Source of the DNA: Salipiger pentaromativorans
GTDB taxonomy: Bacteria; Pseudomonadota; Alphaproteobacteria; Rhodobacterales; Rhodobacteraceae
Assembly: GCF_024721115.1 (NCBI RefSeq)
Contig: NZ_JAMDHK010000001.1
Span: 62,001-126,000, forward strand
Length of the DNA stretch: 64,000 nucleotides
Direction of reading: 5' to 3'
How positions within the stretch are numbered: position 1 is the stretch's first letter; the number at the start of each line of letters is the position of its first letter. Below are positions 231-48,055 of the stretch, piece after piece. Under the pieces are notes generated by a model, which saw nothing but the letters and a program-made list of their open reading frames with translations, made no database searches and was not told the origin of the DNA. Made by a program: the position numbers and the translations under genes.

Positions 231-418
231 TAGCCGGGCCCAGCGGCGGCCCGTGGGGTGCCGCTGGGCCCGGTGAATCCCTGACTTTATCCCAGCCACA
301 TCCGAAGGGCCTCACAGCAAGGCGCATATGTCACCAAAGCGGTAGCCCGCCCGGACGGGCCGCCGCTGGGCCCGGCGGCGCTGCGCGCCTTGTTCCGGGC
401 CAGGGGCGCGGGGATCTG
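231..418 (+). repeat. Structured dispersed repeat, copy 1 of 3
   Basis: This stretch aligns by eye along almost its whole length with 40071-40258 and 45430-45618, all in the same orientation. Shared blocks, in order: GCCGGGCCCAGCGGCGGCCC, GAATCCC..TTTATCCC.GCCA, ATCCGAA.G.CCTC, CACCAAAGCGG.AGCCCGCC, then GCCGCTGGGCCCGGCGGCG and GCGCGCCTT.TTCCGGGCC. The outer blocks form an inverted repeat (GCCGGGCCCAGCGGC against GCCGCTGGGCCCGGC). In this copy the left arm can also pair locally with CCGCTGGGCCCGG at 260-272. It fills the 288-bp gap between the XRE regulator and rnj. I see no credible ORF in it. Confidence 0.85.
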
Positions 419-39117: not shown

Positions 39118-39960
<843 letters not shown>

Positions 39961-40070
39961 CTCTGCCCGACACCGCGCGGGCGGTCGAGGAACTCGAGCT
40001 TGATGCCAAAAAGACTGAGGGCGCCTCGGGTCGCATCGAGAACGTCTCTCACATCCAATCGCGCAGCGTC

Positions 40071-40258
40071 GCCGGGCCCGGCCGCTGTCCGTGGGGTGCC
40101 GCGCCGAGCGTCGAATCCCTCGGTTTATCCCGGCCAAATCCGAAAGACCTCTCAGTTATGCGCTTACCTCCCCAAAGCGGCAGCCCGCCCGGACGGGCAG
40201 CCGCTGGGCCCGGCGACGCTGCGCGCCTTATTCCGGGCCGCCGGTGCCAGGATGGAGG
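40071..40258 (+). repeat. Structured dispersed repeat, copy 2 of 3
   Basis: It aligns with 231-418 and 45430-45618 in the same orientation: GCCGGGCCCGGCCGCTGTCC, GAATCCC..GGTTTATCCCGGCCA, AATCCGAA, CCAAAGCGGCAGCCCGCC, GCCGCTGGGCCCGGCGACG, GCGCGCCTTATTCCGGGCC. The left arm is the most diverged of the three. It sits in the 350-bp gap between moxR (ends 39960) and the ABC ATPase (ends 40311). The flanking bits 39961-40070 and 40259-40310 show no gene. Confidence 0.85.
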
Positions 40259-40310
40259 TACGGGACTTATCTTTGCAGGTCGGCTGCGAAAGAAGATTAA
40301 GGTAAACCCC

Positions 40311-41390
40311 TTACCCTTTGACTGGAAAAACAAAACAGCGGTCGCGCCGCACCGTCAGCCACATCGGCGTGCCGGGTTTCGGCAGGAACACGTTGGGCAC
40401 GGTCGCCTTCAGCACCTCGCCGTTGAAATCCATCCGGTATTCCACCAGGCTTTCCGAGCCCATGAACCGCGCCCGCTCCACCACGCCGCGCGCCGGCGTG
40501 CCGGCCATGGCAGTGGGGTTGGGGCCGCGTCCGGCGCGGTCGAAGTCGATGCCCACATGCTGCGGTCGGAAGACGATCTCGACCTCGCCGCCGTCGGGCA
40601 CCCCGGGCGCCAGGAACTGGCCAAAGGGGGTTTCGGTCAGGGCCCCGCGAACTTTGCCGCGCAACACATTGATGTCGCTGAAAAACGCCACCGCCGCCTT
40701 GTCCACCGGCGCGTTGTAGATATTGTAGGGCGCACCGCGCTGGACGATGCGGCCGCCGCGCATCAGCGCGATTTCGTCGGCCATGCGCATCGCCTCTTCC
40801 GGCTCGTGGGTGACCAGCAGCACCGAGGCGCCTTCCTCCTTGAGCAGCGCCAGCGTCTCGTCGCGGATGCCGTCGCGCAGCCGGTTGTCGAGCCCTGAAA
40901 AGGGCTCGTCCATCAGCATGATCTTGGGCCGCGGCGCCAGCGCACGGGCCAGTGCCACGCGCTGCTGCTCGCCGCCCGAAAGCTGGTGGGGGTATTCGTC
41001 GATGAAATGCGCAAGCCCCACCCGGCTCAGAAGATCCTCGGCGCGGGCGCGCTTTTCCGATTTCGGCCCCTTCAGCCCGAAGGCCACGTTCTCGCCCACG
41101 GAAAGATGCGGGAACAGCGCGAAATCCTGGAACATCAGCCCGATCTGCCGGCGCTCGGGCGGGATCCGGAAGACCGTGTCGCAGATCAGCTTGCCATCCA
41201 CATGGATGGTGCCCTCGTCCTGCATATCGACCCCGGCGATCATCCGCAGCGTGGTCGACTTGCCGCAGCCCGAGGGGCCCAGAAGACAGGTCACATGGCC
41301 CGGCTGGATCGTCAGCGACACATGGTCCACCACCGGCCGCCCCTCGAAGCGGCGCACAAGATCGCGGATTTCCAACCGGGGTGTCTGCAC
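40311..41390 (-). CDS. ABC transporter ATP-binding protein (Fe3+/polyamine type), orphan
   Basis: 359 aa from a GTG at 41390 (QTPRLEIRDLVRRFEGRPVV follows). Walker A GPSGCGKST, Q-loop FQDFALFPHLSVGENVAFGL, signature LSGGEQQRVALARALA, Walker B ILLMDEPFSGLD-type (IMLMDEPFSGLD) and H-loop VTHEPEEA are intact. The last ~110 residues form a TOBE-type regulatory region. This is the layout of FbpC/PotA importer ATPases. No permease or binding-protein gene is nearby, so its partner is unknown. The frame continues upstream of the GTG without protein-like sequence. Confidence 0.88.
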   Translation of the reverse strand: MQTPRLEIRDLVRRFEGRPVVDHVSLTIQPGHVTCLLGPSGCGKSTTLRMIAGVDMQDEGTIHVDGKLICDTVFRIPPERRQIGLMFQDFALFPHLSVGENVAFGLKGPKSEKRARAEDLLSRVGLAHFIDEYPHQLSGGEQQRVALARALAPRPKIMLMDEPFSGLDNRLRDGIRDETLALLKEEGASVLLVTHEPEEAMRMADEIALMRGGRIVQRGAPYNIYNAPVDKAAVAFFSDINVLRGKVRGALTETPFGQFLAPGVPDGGEVEIVFRPQHVGIDFDRAGRGPNPTAMAGTPARGVVERARFMGSESLVEYRMDFNGEVLKATVPNVFLPKPGTPMWLTVRRDRCFVFPVKG

Positions 41391-41498
41391 GCAGCCCTGC
41401 CTCTGTTCTATCCGATGAAAAGTATCGGAATTCCCTAGGCGATTACCAGCGGGCGCGCCGTGCCGCAACCCGGCACATCCCGCGCTTGGCACGCGCGC

Positions 41499-42041
41499 CT
41501 AATGTTCCAGCGCCTTTCCCAGACGCGGCAGGCGCGCCTTCTTCAGCAGCGACCGCATGGTCCAGTCCTCGCCCGAGAGCCGCCGCGCCTCGGCCAGCAC
41601 CGACTCGCAGGCGCCGCGCACGAGCCCCGGCTGCGCCTCGTAGAGCCCGCGCAGAAAGCCGTCCGCATCGACCCGCGACAGCCCCTCTTCGGCAAGAATG
41701 CCGCGCGGGAAATCCTTGGCGTTCTCGGTGATGATGAGATCGGCACTGCCCGCGATGGCGGCGGCCAGCACATGCAGATCCGCCGGATCGGGCAGCCAGA
41801 GCCGCGCCTCCAGCGAGGGTTTCCAGCTGACTTCGGCCCCGGGCCATTGCGCGCGCAGCTGCGCGATCTCGCCGCGCGCCTGCACCTCTCCCATCGGCCC
41901 CAGCTTGCGCGCTGCCCGCGCCCATTCCTCAAGGATGCGCGCCGACCAGAGCGGGGTATAGGCGCCCGCCCGCGCCACGCCCAGAAGCACCTCGCGCATC
42001 ACCGTGGGGTAAAGCACGCAGGTGTCGAGCAGTACCTTCAC
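41499..42041 (-). CDS. PIN-domain protein (RSP_2648-like)
   Basis: 180 aa from a GTG at 42041 (KVLLDTCVLYPTVMREVLLG follows), overlapping the methyltransferase stop by 4 nt (GTGA). Acidic metal-binding residues of the PIN nuclease fold are visible: D near the start (LLDTCVLYP), E in ILEEWARA, and D's in LPDPADLHVLAAAIAG and TENAKDFP. It could be a toxin-like or RNA-processing nuclease. Constant linkage with the RNA methyltransferase in this family of bacteria argues for housekeeping rather than a toxin-antitoxin pair, and no antitoxin gene is seen. Confidence 0.8.
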   Translation of the reverse strand: MKVLLDTCVLYPTVMREVLLGVARAGAYTPLWSARILEEWARAARKLGPMGEVQARGEIAQLRAQWPGAEVSWKPSLEARLWLPDPADLHVLAAAIAGSADLIITENAKDFPRGILAEEGLSRVDADGFLRGLYEAQPGLVRGACESVLAEARRLSGEDWTMRSLLKKARLPRLGKALEH

Positions 42042-43234
42042 AGCCGGAACACCAGCGCCTTGAGATAGCCCGACTCGGCCAGCTGCGGCAGCAGCGGGTG
42101 GTCCGGCCCGGCAAAGCCCGTGTGCAAAAGCTGCGCGCGACGCCCGGCGCGGCCGATGCCGCGCAGGCAAGCGCCGGTGAAGCTGGAGAGATCGGCGGCA
42201 TGCGAGCAGGAGCAGAGCACCAGATAGCCGCCCTCGTCGACCAGCGGCGCCGAGAGCCGTGCCACCCGCTCATAGGCGCGCAGCCCGGCATCGAGCGCCG
42301 GTTTCGAGGGCGCAAAGGCCGGCGGGTCGCAGATCACGAGGCCGAAGCGGGCCTCTTCCCCGCCAAGCGCGGTCAGCACATCGAACGCATCGCCCTGACG
42401 GGTGCTGAACCGCGCGCTGGCGCCCATCTGCCCCGCCCCCTGCTCGGCCAGCGCCAGCGCGGGCGCCGAGCCGTCCACCGCCAGCGCCGAGCTTGCGCCG
42501 CCGGCCAGTGCCGCAAGGGCAAAGCCGCCCACATGGGAAAACACATCCAGCACCGCCTGCCCTCCGGCGAGCCGCGCCGCAAAGGCGTGGTTCGGGCGCT
42601 GGTCGTAGAAAAGCCCGGTTTTCTGCCCGCCGGTGAGGTCGGCCATATAGGTGGCGCCGTTCATCTCCACCGGCAGCGGCGCCTCGGGCGCGGCACCCAG
42701 GAGCACCGCATTGGCGTCGTCGAGCCCTTCGAGCTGGCGCCCGCGCGAGCCTGCGTTTTTCAGAATATTGGTCACGCCGGTGACCTCGGCCAACGCCTCG
42801 GCGAGCGGGGTCAGCAGCAGCTCGGCCCAGGCGGCGTTGGGCTGGATCACGGCGGTGTCGCCGAAACGGTCGATGATCACACCGGGCAGCCCGTCGGCCT
42901 CCGCATGCACCAGCCGGTAATACGGCGAGGGATAGAGCCGCTCGCGCAGCGCCAGCGCGCGGGTCAACCGCGCCGTCAGCCAGTCGCGCCCGATCTCGGC
43001 CTGGGCATCGCGGTCGAGCATGCGCGCGGCGATCTTGGAGGCCGGGGTGACCCCGACCAGCCCCACCGGCATGCGCGCACTGTCTTCCAGCACCGCCACG
43101 GTGCCGGGGGCCAGCGCCTTGGTGCGGCGGTCGAGTACCAGCTCGTTGGCATAGATCCAGGGAAAGCCGCGGCGGATGGCGCGGACATTGGCTTTGGGCG
43201 TCAGACGGACGACGGGCAAAAGGGCGTCACTCAT
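42038..43234 (-). CDS. Class I SAM-dependent RNA methyltransferase (RSP_2647/RlmI-like)
   Basis: 398 aa. An N-terminal PUA-like domain (VRLTPKANVRAIRRGFPWIYANELV...) is followed by a Rossmann methyltransferase domain: TGGQKTGLFYDQRPNH, SAM motif VLDVFSHVGGFALAAL at ~220, LVICDPPAFAPSK (catalytic DPP motif IV) and LCSCSHAADL. The family includes RlmI, which makes m5C in 23S rRNA; the exact target here is not provable. Confidence 0.88.
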   Translation of the reverse strand: MSDALLPVVRLTPKANVRAIRRGFPWIYANELVLDRRTKALAPGTVAVLEDSARMPVGLVGVTPASKIAARMLDRDAQAEIGRDWLTARLTRALALRERLYPSPYYRLVHAEADGLPGVIIDRFGDTAVIQPNAAWAELLLTPLAEALAEVTGVTNILKNAGSRGRQLEGLDDANAVLLGAAPEAPLPVEMNGATYMADLTGGQKTGLFYDQRPNHAFAARLAGGQAVLDVFSHVGGFALAALAGGASSALAVDGSAPALALAEQGAGQMGASARFSTRQGDAFDVLTALGGEEARFGLVICDPPAFAPSKPALDAGLRAYERVARLSAPLVDEGGYLVLCSCSHAADLSSFTGACLRGIGRAGRRAQLLHTGFAGPDHPLLPQLAESGYLKALVFRL

Positions 43235-43585
43235 GCCGCTCCTATACCCTGCCCCGCCGTCCGAGGGAAAGCGCCGAAATCGGATATGCCCCTGCGCAAA
43301 CGCGCCTTTTCACAGCGCTGCCGCCGCTTTGCCCCAAGGACGGGCCGCCACGGGATTCGCCCCTGCCGTGCGATGCCCCAAATGCGCCGCCGGTTGCCGC
43401 CCAGCCCGCAAAGCGATCAGAATCAGAGCAGACCCGGCCTGTCTTTCCGTCAATCGCGGCCATTGCGCGCCGATAATCGGTCTCACGGCGCATATGGCTT
43501 TACTGTTAGCGCTAACCAAATTACATGCTGGGGCATCGTGAAATTCCGCCGCCCCCGCACGGCGGCCAGAGGAGGGAAGCCCGCC
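43235..43585. other. 351-bp upstream region of edd
   Basis: Divergent gap between the methyltransferase (minus) and edd (plus). Apart from the LacI-type operator at 43505-43516 I see no gene, repeat copy or terminator. The first ~250 bp are GC-rich and unremarkable. AGAGGAGGGAAG at 43568-43579 is the edd ribosome-binding site. Confidence 0.5.
43505..43516. promoter_or_regulatory. LacI-family operator upstream of edd
   Basis: GTTAGCGCTAAC is a perfect 12-bp palindrome centred on CG, matching the general TGTTAGCGCTAACA consensus of LacI/GalR-family sugar regulators. It ends 69 bp before the edd start. No LacI-type gene is in the window, so the regulator acts from elsewhere. A sugar or gluconate effector is likely (inference). 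Confidence 0.7.
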
Positions 43586-45391
43586 ATGCCGCTCGACGCC
43601 ACGATCGCCAAAGTCACCGAGGCCATCGAAGCGCGCTCGGAATCCCGCCGCGCCACCTATCTCGACCGCATGCGCCGCGCCGCCGAGGAAGGCCCGCGCC
43701 GGGCGCATCTGACCTGCGGCAACCAGGCTCATGCCTATGCGGCGATGGGCGCGGATCAGGCAGCACTGGCCGAGGGGCGTGCGGCCAATATCGGCATCGT
43801 CACCGCCTATAACGACATGCTCTCGGCGCATCAGCCCTTCGAGCGCTTTCCGCAGATCATCCGCGACGCGGCGCGCGCGGCGGGCGGCACCGCGCAGGTG
43901 GCGGGCGGCGTGCCCGCCATGTGCGACGGGGTCACGCAAGGCCAGACCGGCATGGAGCTGTCGCTGTTTTCGCGCGACGTGATCGCGCTGGCGGCGGGGG
44001 TGGCACTCTCGCACAACACCTTCGATGCGGCGGTCTATCTCGGCGTCTGCGACAAGATCGTGCCGGGGCTGGTGATCGCGGCGGCGACCTTCGGCTATAT
44101 CCCCGGCATCTTCCTGCCCGCGGGCCCGATGACCAGCGGGCTGCCCAATGACGAAAAGGCCAAGGTGCGCCAGCAATACGCCGCCGGAGAGATCGGACGC
44201 GACAAGCTGATGGAGGCGGAGATGGCCTCCTATCACGGGCCGGGCACCTGCACCTTCTATGGCACCGCCAATTCCAACCAGATGCTGATGGAGATCATGG
44301 GGCTGCACCTGCCGGGCGCGAGCTTCGTGAACCCCAACACGCCGCTGCGCGACGCGCTGACCACGGTGGGTGCGACGCGGGCGCTGGAGATCACCCGGCT
44401 CGGCAATGATTATCGCCCGGTCTGCGACATCCTCGACGCCAAGGCATTCGTGAACGGCATTGTCGGGCTGATGGCCACCGGCGGCTCGACCAACCTCGTG
44501 CTGCACCTGCCCGCCATGGCGCGCGCCGCGGGGATCGAGCTGACGCTGGAGGATTTCGACGCGATTTCCTCGGTCACGCCGCTGATGGCCAAGGTCTATC
44601 CCAACGGGCTTGCCGACGTGAACCATTTCCACGCCGCCGGCGGGCTGCAATTCCTCATCGGCGAGCTGCTGGACGCGGGGCTGCTGCATGAGGATGTGAA
44701 AACCGTCGCCGGCGACGGGCTGTCGCTTTACACGCAGGAGCCCAAGCTGAAGGGGGGCGTGCTGAGCTATGAGGAGGCGCCGAAGGGCAGCCAGAACGAC
44801 AAGATCCTGCGCCCGGCCGGAGAGGCGTTCCAGCCCACCGGCGGGCTCAAGCAGCTTTACGGCAATCTCGGTCACGGCATGATGAAGATCTCCGCCGTGG
44901 CGCCCGAGCGCCATGTGATCGAGGCGAAGGCGCGGATCTTCCAGGATCAGGAGGCGGTGAAGGAGGCCTTCAAGGCGGGCGAGTTCACCGAGGACACGAT
45001 TGTGGTGGTGCGCTTTCAGGGGCCGAAATCCAACGGCATGCCCGAGCTGCACTCGCTGACGCCGACGCTGGCGGTGTTGCAGGATCGCGGGCTCAAGGTG
45101 GCGCTGGTGACCGACGGGCGTATGTCGGGCGCCTCGGGCAAGGTGCCCTCGGCGATCCATATCTGCCCCGAGGCCGCCGATGGCGGGCCGCTGGCCAAGC
45201 TGCGCGACGGCGATCTGCTGCGGGTCGATGCGGTGGCAGGCACGCTGAGCTGTCTGGAAGAGGGCTTCGAGGCGCGGGAGCCGGTGACGGCGGATCTCAC
45301 GGGGAATGGTCACGGTGTGGGCCGCGAGCTGTTCGAGGCGTTCCGGCAGAATGTGGGGCTGGCATCGAACGGGGCGGCGGTGGTGGTCTAA
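43586..45391 (+). CDS. edd: Phosphogluconate dehydratase
   Basis: 601 aa from [20 protein letters not shown]. It converts 6-phosphogluconate to KDPG, the defining Entner-Doudoroff step. IlvD/Edd family motifs: [44 protein letters not shown] and [12 protein letters not shown] (Fe-S cysteines), [44 protein letters not shown]. The [10 protein letters not shown] form marks Edd rather than dihydroxyacid dehydratase. eda is not downstream; repeat copy 3 and the TRAP terminator follow. Confidence 0.96.
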
Positions 45392-45429
45392 CCCCTACTG
45401 TCGGATCATGCACCATATACACAACGGAA

Positions 45430-45618
45430 GCCGGGCCCAGCGGCGGCCCGTGGGCTGACGCTCTGCCCGCTGAATCCCGTACTTTATCCCGGCCAGATCC
45501 GAAGGACCTCCCAGCTCAGCGCCCACGTCACCAAAGCGGCAGCCCGCCGGGACGGGCAGCCGCTGGGCCCGGCGGCGCTACGCGCCTTGTTCCGGGCCTG
45601 GGTGCGAGGATTGAGCTA
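45430..45618 (+). repeat. Structured dispersed repeat, copy 3 of 3
   Basis: Same orientation as copies 1 and 2. It is closest to copy 1 at both ends (GCCGGGCCCAGCGGCGGCCC and GCCGCTGGGCCCGGCGGCG) and to copy 2 in the middle (TTTATCCCGGCCAGATCCGA). It fills most of the 309-bp gap after edd. 45392-45429 holds nothing recognisable and 45650-45677 is a terminator. Confidence 0.87.
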
Positions 45619-45649
45619 GGGGCTTTGCCGGACACGCCCCCAAGAACCG

Positions 45650-45677
45650 AAAAAGCGGACCCGAGGGTCCGCTTTTC
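45650..45677. terminator. Bidirectional terminator between edd and the TRAP operon
   Basis: AAAAGCGGACC and GGTCCGCTTTT (45651-45661 and 45666-45676) form an 11-bp perfect stem around CGAG, with A/T runs on both sides. It can end the convergent TRAP (minus) and edd/repeat (plus) transcripts. Confidence 0.88.
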
Positions 45678-45700
45678 CATGTCTCAACCAGCATCCCCGA

Positions 45701-48055
45701 TCAGTTCGGGATCAGGTCCGGGATGATCGTCACGATCCCCGGCGCGAACCACAAGAGCGCCAGACCCGCCACCTGGATCGCCACGAAGGGCAGCACCCCC
45801 CGATAGATATGGCCCGTGGTCACGCTCGCCGGCGCCACGCCGCGCAGATAGAACAGCGCGAAGCCGAAGGGTGGGGTCAGGAACGAGGTTTGCAGGTTCA
45901 CCGCGATCATGATCGTCACCCATTTCGGATCGAAGGACCCGCCATAGATCACCGGCCCCACGATCGGCACCACGATGTAGATGATCTCGAGGAAATCCAG
46001 CACGAAGCCCAGGATGAACAGCACCAGCATGACGATCAGGAAGACCTTGTGCTCGTCATCGAAGCTTTTCAGGAAGCCCTGGATGTAATGCTCGCCCCCG
46101 AAGGAGATCACCACGAGGTTCAGAAGCTGCGAGGCCACGAGGATGGTGAAGACCATTGAGGTCACCTTCGCCGTCTCGCGCACCGCCGGGCCAAGCACCC
46201 CGGCCTTGAGCAGCACCCAGCAGGAGAAGAACAGCCCGAAGAGCGCGTAGAGATAGGCGGCCTGCGCCACGAAGAAGGCGATCCAGCTTTCTGCGCTGAC
46301 CTCTTCCGCGTTCACCCGCAGGTCGAAATTCACCCCCACGAGGATCATGATCACCACGGCAAAGGTGGACCAGAGCACGATGCGGGGCGATTTCTCCTGA
46401 TCGCCCAGCTTGCGATAGGCGGCCAGCATGATCGCGCCCGCCGCCCCCAGCGCCGCCGCAGGGGTCGGGTTGGTGATGCCGCCGAGGATCGAACCCAGAA
46501 CCGCCACGATCAGCACCAGCGGCGGGAACACCACCCGGATCAGATCGTTCTGCCCCAGCCGCTGCGCCGCATATTTAGCGCCCCAGAGCGTCAATAGCCA
46601 TGGCACCGCCATCAGCACGACGGTCACGCCCGAAGAGGTGACGGGAGAGATGAAGAGCGCATCCACGATGAGCCCCAGCACGATCCCGCCCGCGCCGACA
46701 TAAAGCGGCAGCGGATCGGAGCTGGGCGACACCGCCCGCCCCCAGGCCAGCACGATGCCCATCAGCACCGAGATCACCGCGATGCCGGTGCCGATCGGCG
46801 CGGCATTGGCGATCTTGGCGTCGCGGGCGGCAACCAGCTCTTCCGCGCTCAGACGGTGGCTTTCCTCGACACCGCCGGCGGCGTCGATTTCGGCCTGCTG
46901 CGCGACGGCCTCGTCCCAGGCCGACTGCCCGTGCAGCTCGATCATCGACGCCTGGCACTGCTCACCGACATTGGTGCGCAGGGTGGCGTTCTGGCCGGCA
47001 TCGGAAAAGCTCGACACGGTCAGCGATTGCGAGCCCACCACGTTGATCTGGCCAAGGCCGATGGTGCCCACGATGATCAGCACCGGCACCAGCAGATACC
47101 AGGTCAGCGCCTCGCTGCGGGTCACCGGCTCGCCCATGGCCGCCGCACTGCGCACCGGCGGCGCCTTGGACGGGTTCAGCATGGCGAAGCCGAAGGCATA
47201 GGCTGCGTAGAGCACCGCCAGCAGGATCCCCGGCAGCAGCGCCGCCTGAAAGAGCGTGCCGACCGAGACCACCGCGGGCTTGCCCAGATAGGTGAGCGCA
47301 TCGGTACAGCCCGCGGCCTGCGCCCGCGCCTCCTGTGCGGTCGAGTAGAGATCGCCCGCGAGCGTGCCCAGAAGCACGATCACGATGGAGGGCGGGATGA
47401 TCTGCCCCAGTGTGCCCGAGGCCGCGATGACCCCGGTTGCCAGCTCGGGCGAATAGTTGTTGCGCAGCATCGTGGGCAGGGCCAGCAGGCCCATGGTCAC
47501 CACGGTGGCGCCGACGATGCCGGTGGAGGCGGCAAGAAACGCACCCACCACCACGATGGACACCGCCAGACCGCCGGGCAGCGGGCCGAACACCCGCGCC
47601 ATGGTCTTGAGCAGATCATCGGCGATCTTGGAGCGCTCCAGCACGATGCCCATCATCACGAACATCAGCACCGCAAGCAGCGTCTCGATGCTTTGGCCCG
47701 CGATGACCCGCTCGTTGATGCGGTTCACGATGAAGGAGACGTTGCGGTCCAGCGCCACTTCCCAGCCGCGTTCGAACACCGGTGTCGCGTAGCGCGGCAG
47801 GTCCGGGTAGCGGAAGATCGAGATCAGATCCTCCTTGACCCCGCTCGCGACCAGCTCGCGATAGGCGTCCGAACTGCTGTCGATGGCCTGGTGCACCAAA
47901 AGCCCCGCGCTATCCAGCGCAGCGATGATGCCGAAGGAGATGACCCCCGCGCCACCGATGGCAAAGGCCACCGGAAAGCCGGAGAGAATGGCGGAAAAGA
48001 GCGTGAGAAAGACGATGATCAGGCCGATCTCGACGCCATCGAGTCCGAATAGCAT
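45701..48055 (-). CDS. dctM: TRAP transporter large permease (DctM), unusually long
   Basis: 784 aa against ~425-450 for ordinary DctM. The N-terminal half is the DctM fold with SIETLLAVLMFVMMGIVLERSKIADDLL, GGLAVSIVVVGAFLAASTGIVGATVVTMG and ASGTLGQIIPPSIVIVLLG; the C-terminal part ends LTPPFGFALFYLRGVAP. Between them lies a large extra region (~residues 290-560) with more helices and a soluble loop (SQSLTVSSFSDAGQNATLRT, then QSAWDEAVAQQAEIDAAGG). Long DctMs of this kind accompany TakP-like binding proteins. Third gene of the TRAP operon, 14 nt after dctQ. Confidence 0.88.
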   Translation of the reverse strand: MLFGLDGVEIGLIIVFLTLFSAILSGFPVAFAIGGAGVISFGIIAALDSAGLLVHQAIDSSSDAYRELVASGVKEDLISIFRYPDLPRYATPVFERGWEVALDRNVSFIVNRINERVIAGQSIETLLAVLMFVMMGIVLERSKIADDLLKTMARVFGPLPGGLAVSIVVVGAFLAASTGIVGATVVTMGLLALPTMLRNNYSPELATGVIAASGTLGQIIPPSIVIVLLGTLAGDLYSTAQEARAQAAGCTDALTYLGKPAVVSVGTLFQAALLPGILLAVLYAAYAFGFAMLNPSKAPPVRSAAAMGEPVTRSEALTWYLLVPVLIIVGTIGLGQINVVGSQSLTVSSFSDAGQNATLRTNVGEQCQASMIELHGQSAWDEAVAQQAEIDAAGGVEESHRLSAEELVAARDAKIANAAPIGTGIAVISVLMGIVLAWGRAVSPSSDPLPLYVGAGGIVLGLIVDALFISPVTSSGVTVVLMAVPWLLTLWGAKYAAQRLGQNDLIRVVFPPLVLIVAVLGSILGGITNPTPAAALGAAGAIMLAAYRKLGDQEKSPRIVLWSTFAVVIMILVGVNFDLRVNAEEVSAESWIAFFVAQAAYLYALFGLFFSCWVLLKAGVLGPAVRETAKVTSMVFTILVASQLLNLVVISFGGEHYIQGFLKSFDDEHKVFLIVMLVLFILGFVLDFLEIIYIVVPIVGPVIYGGSFDPKWVTIMIAVNLQTSFLTPPFGFALFYLRGVAPASVTTGHIYRGVLPFVAIQVAGLALLWFAPGIVTIIPDLIPN

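Follow-up and report, generated by a model that had tools for sequence, protein, structure and literature searches.

The pneumococcal repeats BOX, RUP and SPRITE are described as small, structured, MITE-like elements whose inverted repeats fold into duplexes (PMC3049150). The same paper describes BOX as modular and the pneumococcal repeats as over-represented between convergent genes and inserting into one another, and it reports that BOX and RUP insertions cause target-site duplications (PMC3049150). At the level of description, the element presented here resembles these repeats in being small, structured, MITE-like and modular, in its folding inverted repeats, in its nesting with other repeats and in its excess, within Salipiger, between convergent genes. 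It differs from BOX and RUP in that no consistent target-site duplication was found, and further in being GC-rich, in its conserved loop of 75 nt and in the alternative helix on its 3′ side. A second comparison is ERIC, also called IRU (RU-1), of enterobacteria, described as a dispersed intergenic unit of 127 bp (PMC2759123). Our element is likewise dispersed, intergenic and of similar size, a likeness in the mode of occurrence, and it lives in different taxa. ERIC has short forms that arise through internal deletion and longer ones that arise through insertion; to our knowledge, two covarying arm types around a conserved loop are not known from it. GTAG REPs are reported mainly from convergent or unidirectional gaps (PMC3733652). 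Convergent gaps are also used by our element, and part of its type B copies sit between inverted GTAGGGTGGGC-type repeats; unlike the GTAG REPs and REPINs, however, it has no GTAG tag and is several times longer, and 32 of the 35 genomes tested yielded no Y1 transposase. REPINs are moved by RAYTs.

We analysed a window, meaning the whole 64-kb stretch of DNA, that carries three copies of this element. Several traits of the MITE kind are present: it is short (~170 nt), non-coding, multi-copy (36 places), dispersed, and present or absent between relatives. As regards inverted repeats at the ends, the element has inverted arms of 21 nt, the 3′ one of which is followed on its outer side by a conserved tail. 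Among the literature matches listed, none describes this repeat. We read it as a new family of a known general kind (MITE/BOX/ERIC-like), with no Rfam match and with its kinship judged by description. Our main reading, to which we give a probability of about 0.7, is that of a small non-autonomous dispersed repeat of this kind (~170 nt plus variable outer modules) that is moved by an enzyme acting in trans and read through at the 3′ ends of genes. The family of structured intergenic repeats is real and widespread, and it is probably mobile.

Three copies in the window and the build of the element

As the original prediction had held, three copies lie in the window in the same orientation. Copy 1 occupies 233..401, with weaker similarity on to ~419, copy 2 occupies 40071..40239 and copy 3 45430..45598, all on the + strand, and each is matched over its full length by the whole-length covariance model R1, with 181.2, 179.8 and 177.8 bits, respectively. 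The next-best + strand match of R1 in the window is 13.2 bits. Because the arms are palindromic, the opposite strand of each window copy also scores, at 35–42 bits. In a whole-genome search, copy 2 matched copy 1 with E 6.6e-43 (82%) and copy 3 matched it with E 9.4e-57 (86%). The first alignment held 30 of 32 loci (L039 and L040 were left out); nine partial or rearranged copies and then L035 were later dropped, and A3 and R1 consist of 12 type A rows from the own genome, the three window copies among them.

All three copies are intergenic, lying between called genes as had been claimed. The flanking genes are convergent at copy 2 (39118-39960, +, AAA/MoxR-like; 40311-41357, -, ABC transporter ATPase) and at copy 3 (43586-45391, +, IlvD/Edd-type dehydratase; 45701-48055, -, DctM). 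The statement that none of the copies has an ORF does not hold to the letter, as ORFs of at least 30 aa overlap copies 1, 2 and 3 (three, five and four, respectively), and it does hold in the sense that none lies at the same place in all three. The high local density is also real: three copies in 64 kb compare with 36–39 places in 5.28 Mb. No copy lies in twenty 20-kb stretches of the own genome whose round coordinates were chosen with the copy list already to hand, so that the three copies within 45 kb form a local cluster.

The element, ~170 nt overall, consists of a stem of 21 bp (P1), an inner one of 9 bp (P2), a ~75-nt loop and a tail. In copy 1 (+ strand), the 5′ arm of P1 (233..253) pairs with the 3′ arm (356..376) in the structure that was supplied to R1, the 5′ side of P2 (255..264) pairs with 339-348, and the conserved loop core (TTTATCCCAGCCACATCCGAAGGGCCTC...) extends over 265..338. 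Both arm types, A and B, have this loop in common, and it can be recognised in other genera; by alignment it lies at 40103..40176 in copy 2 and at 45462..45535 in copy 3 (both +). The inverted repeats GCCGGGCCCAGCGGC (233-247) and GCCGCTGGGCCCGGC (362-376) had been described as terminal. Their sequences are correct; they are not terminal, because 25 conserved bases (377..401, ending in TTCCGGGCC) follow the 3′ arm. This tail can pair with the 3′ arm in place of the 5′ arm, which makes an alternative helix P3 possible. The reported pairing of the arms of copies 1 and 3 is found again as a 21-bp stem with no mismatch in copy 1 and one in copy 3, while copy 2 has one mismatch and two G-U pairs.

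Across the copies the arms fall into two main types, A (GCCGGGCCCAGCGGC) and B (GCCGCGCCATCGCC). The best-kept loop letters in Salipiger and two other genera centre on TTTATC...CCA..TCCGAA..ACCTC; they are weaker in 20 low-copy loci, where TTTAT and CCA persist. Loop-less short forms exist, for example in the own genome on contig C7 and, downstream of pheS, on contig C34. At the copy 1 site of Salipiger abyssi, both ends of the element are kept and the core is replaced by another palindrome. At this site (L192) and in L024 and L027 we noticed palindromic modules of the CATGCCGGAGGCATG and GCGATGTGTGAGAGG type that replace or join parts of the element, giving mosaic intergenic elements. Additionally, in another genus (G147), extra inverted repeats of ~20 nt flank the element in nine aligned copies. 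We also observed that the outer conserved modules, CGGACATC...GAACGGCAGCTTTG and an inverted TGGCCTGGAGCGGACGTTGC, differ by genus between G370 (L340-L350) and G147 (L351-L359). Lineages may thus have their own composites of element and outer modules.

Copy number, spread and placement

The own genome (5.28 Mb in 39 contigs) belongs to a Salipiger close to S. abyssi; judged by the gene beside copy 3, the nearest named relative is Salipiger abyssi SY10-16. R1 gave 50 rows in this genome at E<=1, which reduce to 39 places after removal of 11 opposite-strand rereadings. At E<=1e-3 there are 36 distinct places, some of them partial or without a loop, and more copies may exist, as 150 of 10394 first-look candidates were scored. 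The expectation of many copies genome-wide was therefore correct. With opposite-strand rereadings removed in the same way, the S. abyssi genome G005 has 43 distinct places (48 rows) and genome G012 has 42 (47 rows). Some contigs and copies of G005 coincide with the plasmids of S. abyssi JLT2014. In genome G006 we saw paired elements ~230–380 bp apart (C3:92691/92925, loci L124 and L255; C5:282790/283120; C13:6711/7087), which suggests local duplication or repeated insertion at one site.

Model R2 matched 107 of 246 genomes of the family and 97 of 196 of the order, in overlapping samples with 11 (family) and 14 (order) candidates scored per genome. The matching rows shown from the order sample are of the same family, Rhodobacteraceae, and some genera yielded only one to three copies. 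A DNA search of 16 genomes that represent other families of the class gave no match, so that the outer bounds of the spread are drawn only roughly. The search of phages also gave no match; the loop pattern is present in six viral contigs, with one weak partial model match among them (20.2 bits).

The placement of the copies is uneven. For the own genome 35 of the 39 loci were considered (L251-L254 were left out): 33 lie between called genes, one at a contig edge, and one short form is called inside a gene. With genes from an in-house codon-score caller, convergent genes flank 17 of the 33 classifiable copies there and 31 of 43 in S. abyssi, with one divergent case each. The background, taken from 464 kb of the own genome including the window, has 42 convergent gaps among 271 of at least 20 nt, or 6570 of 59682 intergenic bases (11%). 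Against the background gap share, the binomial p values are 1.6e-6 (own) and 1.7e-16 (S. abyssi), for two sets that are not independent, as 11 sites are common to both. Of 20 copies from two other genera, 12 could be called, 10 of these being convergent, and all four matches on annotated plasmids are convergent, two of these being S. abyssi copies already counted and two partial. The preference is not general, because the low-copy genera show it in 3 of 15 classifiable cases: of 20 loci, chosen mainly because their genomes have few copies, 3 are convergent and 12 co-directional, while 3 sit at edges and the caller places 2 within a gene. The co-directional ones are antisense in 11 of 12 cases, most of them at one place between pheS and pheT. 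The co-directional copies in Salipiger have no orientation preference (6 sense and 9 antisense in the own genome, 5 and 6 in S. abyssi), so that a role in cis of one strand within the mRNA is not favoured.

A hairpin between convergent genes invites the idea of a bidirectional transcription terminator, and both the location, above all in S. abyssi, and the fold agree with it. Furthermore, terminator-like sites outside the element occur in 13 of 49 gaps that hold an element, compared with 13 of 26 background gaps of at least 80 nt. However, the difference is not significant (p 0.49) when the comparison takes in every one of the 40 convergent background gaps, 14 of which have a site. No U-run follows the arms, and a terminator scan of 39900-45900 found none in copies 2 and 3, which leaves this idea hardly credible. 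The convergent placement is explained by mere tolerance as well, a point against our main reading. Under the mobile-repeat reading, insertions would persist mainly at 3′ ends, where neither a promoter nor an operon is cut, and the copies there would be transcribed by read-through and become part of 3′ UTRs.

Pairing of the arms and the level at which it acts

The compensatory changes that the original prediction had proposed to look for are abundant, and the family extends well beyond the three sites of the window. In an alignment of 60 copies (A4), 18 of the 30 stem pairs show double changes compared with 8.8 in shuffles; in 100 hand-chosen copies that include all of these 60 (A5), the numbers are 19 of 30 and 11.7. 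A5 contains 300 double-change cells compared with 94 in shuffles and 7–58 in slid controls, 96.3% of its 2892 stem cells pair, and 0 of 500 shuffles reach the observed values. Both alignments were fitted to the structure; the swap between A and B arms is nevertheless seen in plain MAFFT alignments. The helix P3 of 3′ arm and tail pairs in 94.4% of 674 cells and has 46 double-change cells compared with 13, with 4 pairs showing double changes, a number equalled by 13 of 500 shuffles. As the copies are related by descent, these counts of pairs, and those of substitutions below, are not independent events.

Double changes of this kind would also be made at the level of DNA, where template-switch correction between the arms of a palindrome yields paired changes, and this counts against the reading as a mobile repeat that folds as RNA. 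The element would then be a DNA palindrome (a cruciform, a protein-binding site or a REP-like nucleoid site) for which RNA is irrelevant. The arms are indeed long and nearly perfect, and some copies are nested in REP pairs. What speaks against this explanation is an asymmetry in the stems. There, G-U combinations outnumber A-C ones by 77 to 33, or by 17 to 5 when counted by column (8 ties), and G-U is the heavier in all five groups (29:21, 21:5, 17:5, 8:1 and 2:1). The excess shrinks to 45 to 30 once the two largest columns, one of which is A>G, are set aside. In the loop, C>T (5.1%) is not above G>A (6.6%); A>G (5.1%) is more frequent than T>C (3.8%), a difference that would lean in the direction of the stem bias even without structure and so fits the DNA explanation. 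Additionally, a cruciform-type fold of two hairpins gives 6 double-change pairs, not above the 6.2 of shuffles. Taken together, we regard a purely DNA-level palindrome as distinctly improbable. The excess of G-U over A-C, as far as sequence comparison can tell, gives moderate support to selection on the + strand RNA.

The two-hairpin fold is 92.1% paired and exceeds shuffles in its other measures; we set it aside, as its double-change pairs are no more than in shuffles and its support is below that of the long stem.

The suggestion of a folded RNA or a MITE-like element has thus gained from the covariation, the G-U excess and the turnover of sites between species (see below). For the mobile repeat that is our main reading, the arms would form a long hairpin in RNA that exposes the loop, while the 3′ arm and the tail would form the alternative helix. 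The pairing may be kept for recognition or copying of the element, for protection of transcript ends, or for both. The placement in low-copy genera and the A>G lean have slightly lowered our confidence in this main reading.

Turnover, mobility and the pheS-pheT copies

Eleven of the 39 own places correspond to sites that also hold one of the 43 S. abyssi copies. Nine of these common sites entered a similarity ranking of 25 own and 35 S. abyssi copies. Where both copies have the same orientation (six sites), the S. abyssi copy comes first in nearness among those of its arm type in five cases and second in one; where the orientations are opposite (three sites), its ranks are 22, 10 and 5 of 25. 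Copies of opposite orientation are thus no nearer than random, which fits separate insertions. Inversion in place was considered for these three sites and is not preferred, as the likeness of the copies there does not go beyond that of unrelated ones, with the caveat that two of the three own copies (L248 and L251) are atypical or truncated. At all three sites, inverted REPs (GTAGGGTGGGC...GCCCACC) stand on both sides in both species, some of them decayed. At one own locus (L283) such a REP pair stands empty, and its S. abyssi counterpart (L230) contains the element; L175/L273 are a further presence/absence pair at one site. Copy 3 is present in S. abyssi (L041) and absent from the same junction in S. 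bermudensis (L044); among 80 loci of the gene beside copy 3, a model match adjoins it only in L041. At the copy 2 site, the syntenic S. abyssi interval holds other sequence. The empty sites are not base-clean, which counts against a mobile element.

Target-site duplications, for which a search had been advised, gave no consistent signal: in four sets of 9, 11, 22 and 20 copies, whose true ends are uncertain, only words of 3 or 4 letters were found, at scattered offsets and in no more than 6 copies. The enzyme that would move the element was not found either, and both results count against the main reading. Among 30 own copies (435 pairs) the closest two are only 88.8% alike, and thus there was no recent burst in the own genome. 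Copies in G147 are up to 97.6% alike in differing surroundings, which fits recent spread.

Mobilisation by a RAYT was considered and rejected. No Y1 transposase (PF01797) was found in the own genome, in a search whose controls were positive in 5 of 14, and 3 of 35 genomes tested, the own included among the 35, have one. The strict REP pattern lies within 120 nt on both sides of 2 of 9 own and 4 of 25 S. abyssi type B copies, and on at least one side of 4 of 9 and 12 of 25; the element itself is free of the tag. As a separate observation, GTAGGGTGGGC has 15 matches in 464 kb of the own genome and forms a second, shorter REP-like family (GTAG plus hairpin). This family is frequent though no Y1/RAYT transposase was found, and its inverted pairs enclose some type B copies.

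A different picture emerges near pheS and pheT. In nine of 20 fetched loci with four genus labels (L292-L295, L297, L298, L300, L302 and L305), both flanks are the same and the element lies at ~2501-2667 of the locus in the same antisense orientation. One flank in L293 and L302 is pheS, in L293 by Pfam, and the second flank in both we take, from its translation, to be pheT; in both loci the element is antisense to pheS/pheT. Double changes keep the pairing at this orthologous place (columns 9/150, 11/148, 16/138 and 27/118), and in two further genera (L311 and L338) the element is downstream of pheS, again antisense. All this would suit a structured regulatory or housekeeping RNA with a cellular role of its own that was multiplied in some lineages, the copies being RNA genes, and the G-U bias fits it as well. 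However, 139 of 246 genomes have no match under strict filters, and sites differ between close species. Among 30 pheS loci, one per genus, only L338 and L311 have clear copies, while L327, L334, L339 and L317 have weak matches (26–36 bits, E<0.01). Rfam 15 has no match in the window at the gathering threshold, and a relaxed search (E<=0.5) of 14 loci has none on the element; its matches elsewhere in these loci are three L2 leaders beside other genes, a tRNA and two sub-threshold ones. We therefore consider such an RNA gene unlikely.

A single conserved pheS-pheT RNA gene for the whole family is rejected on the same count of 2 in 30. The loop-less form downstream of pheS in the own genome has the opposite orientation. 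In L290, L291 and L296, we noted an L2 ribosomal protein leader (RF03142) within ~2 kb of the element's second recurrent place.

The pheS-pheT copy may have acquired a role, and it might influence pheST expression. One could also imagine that the element is copied via its own folded RNA, as a SINE-like bacterial parasite that arose from an ncRNA gene present once per genome, for instance the pheS-pheT copy, its loop and the switch between 5′ arm and tail being recognised by a reverse transcriptase in trans or an RNA-guided enzyme; this we regard as very improbable. We prefer the non-autonomous mobile repeat, whose copies a host or IS enzyme other than a Y1/RAYT of the own genome would spread in trans.

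If this reading is true, a structured repeat family that has no name yet and shows signs of constraint at the RNA level is present in over 40% of the genomes sampled from a major marine family (107 of 246). The repeat would affect transcript 3′ ends, annotation and assembly, and it would offer a system in which to follow, across many genera, how a repeat spreads without a RAYT, how sites within REP pairs come to be used again and how the RNA folds.
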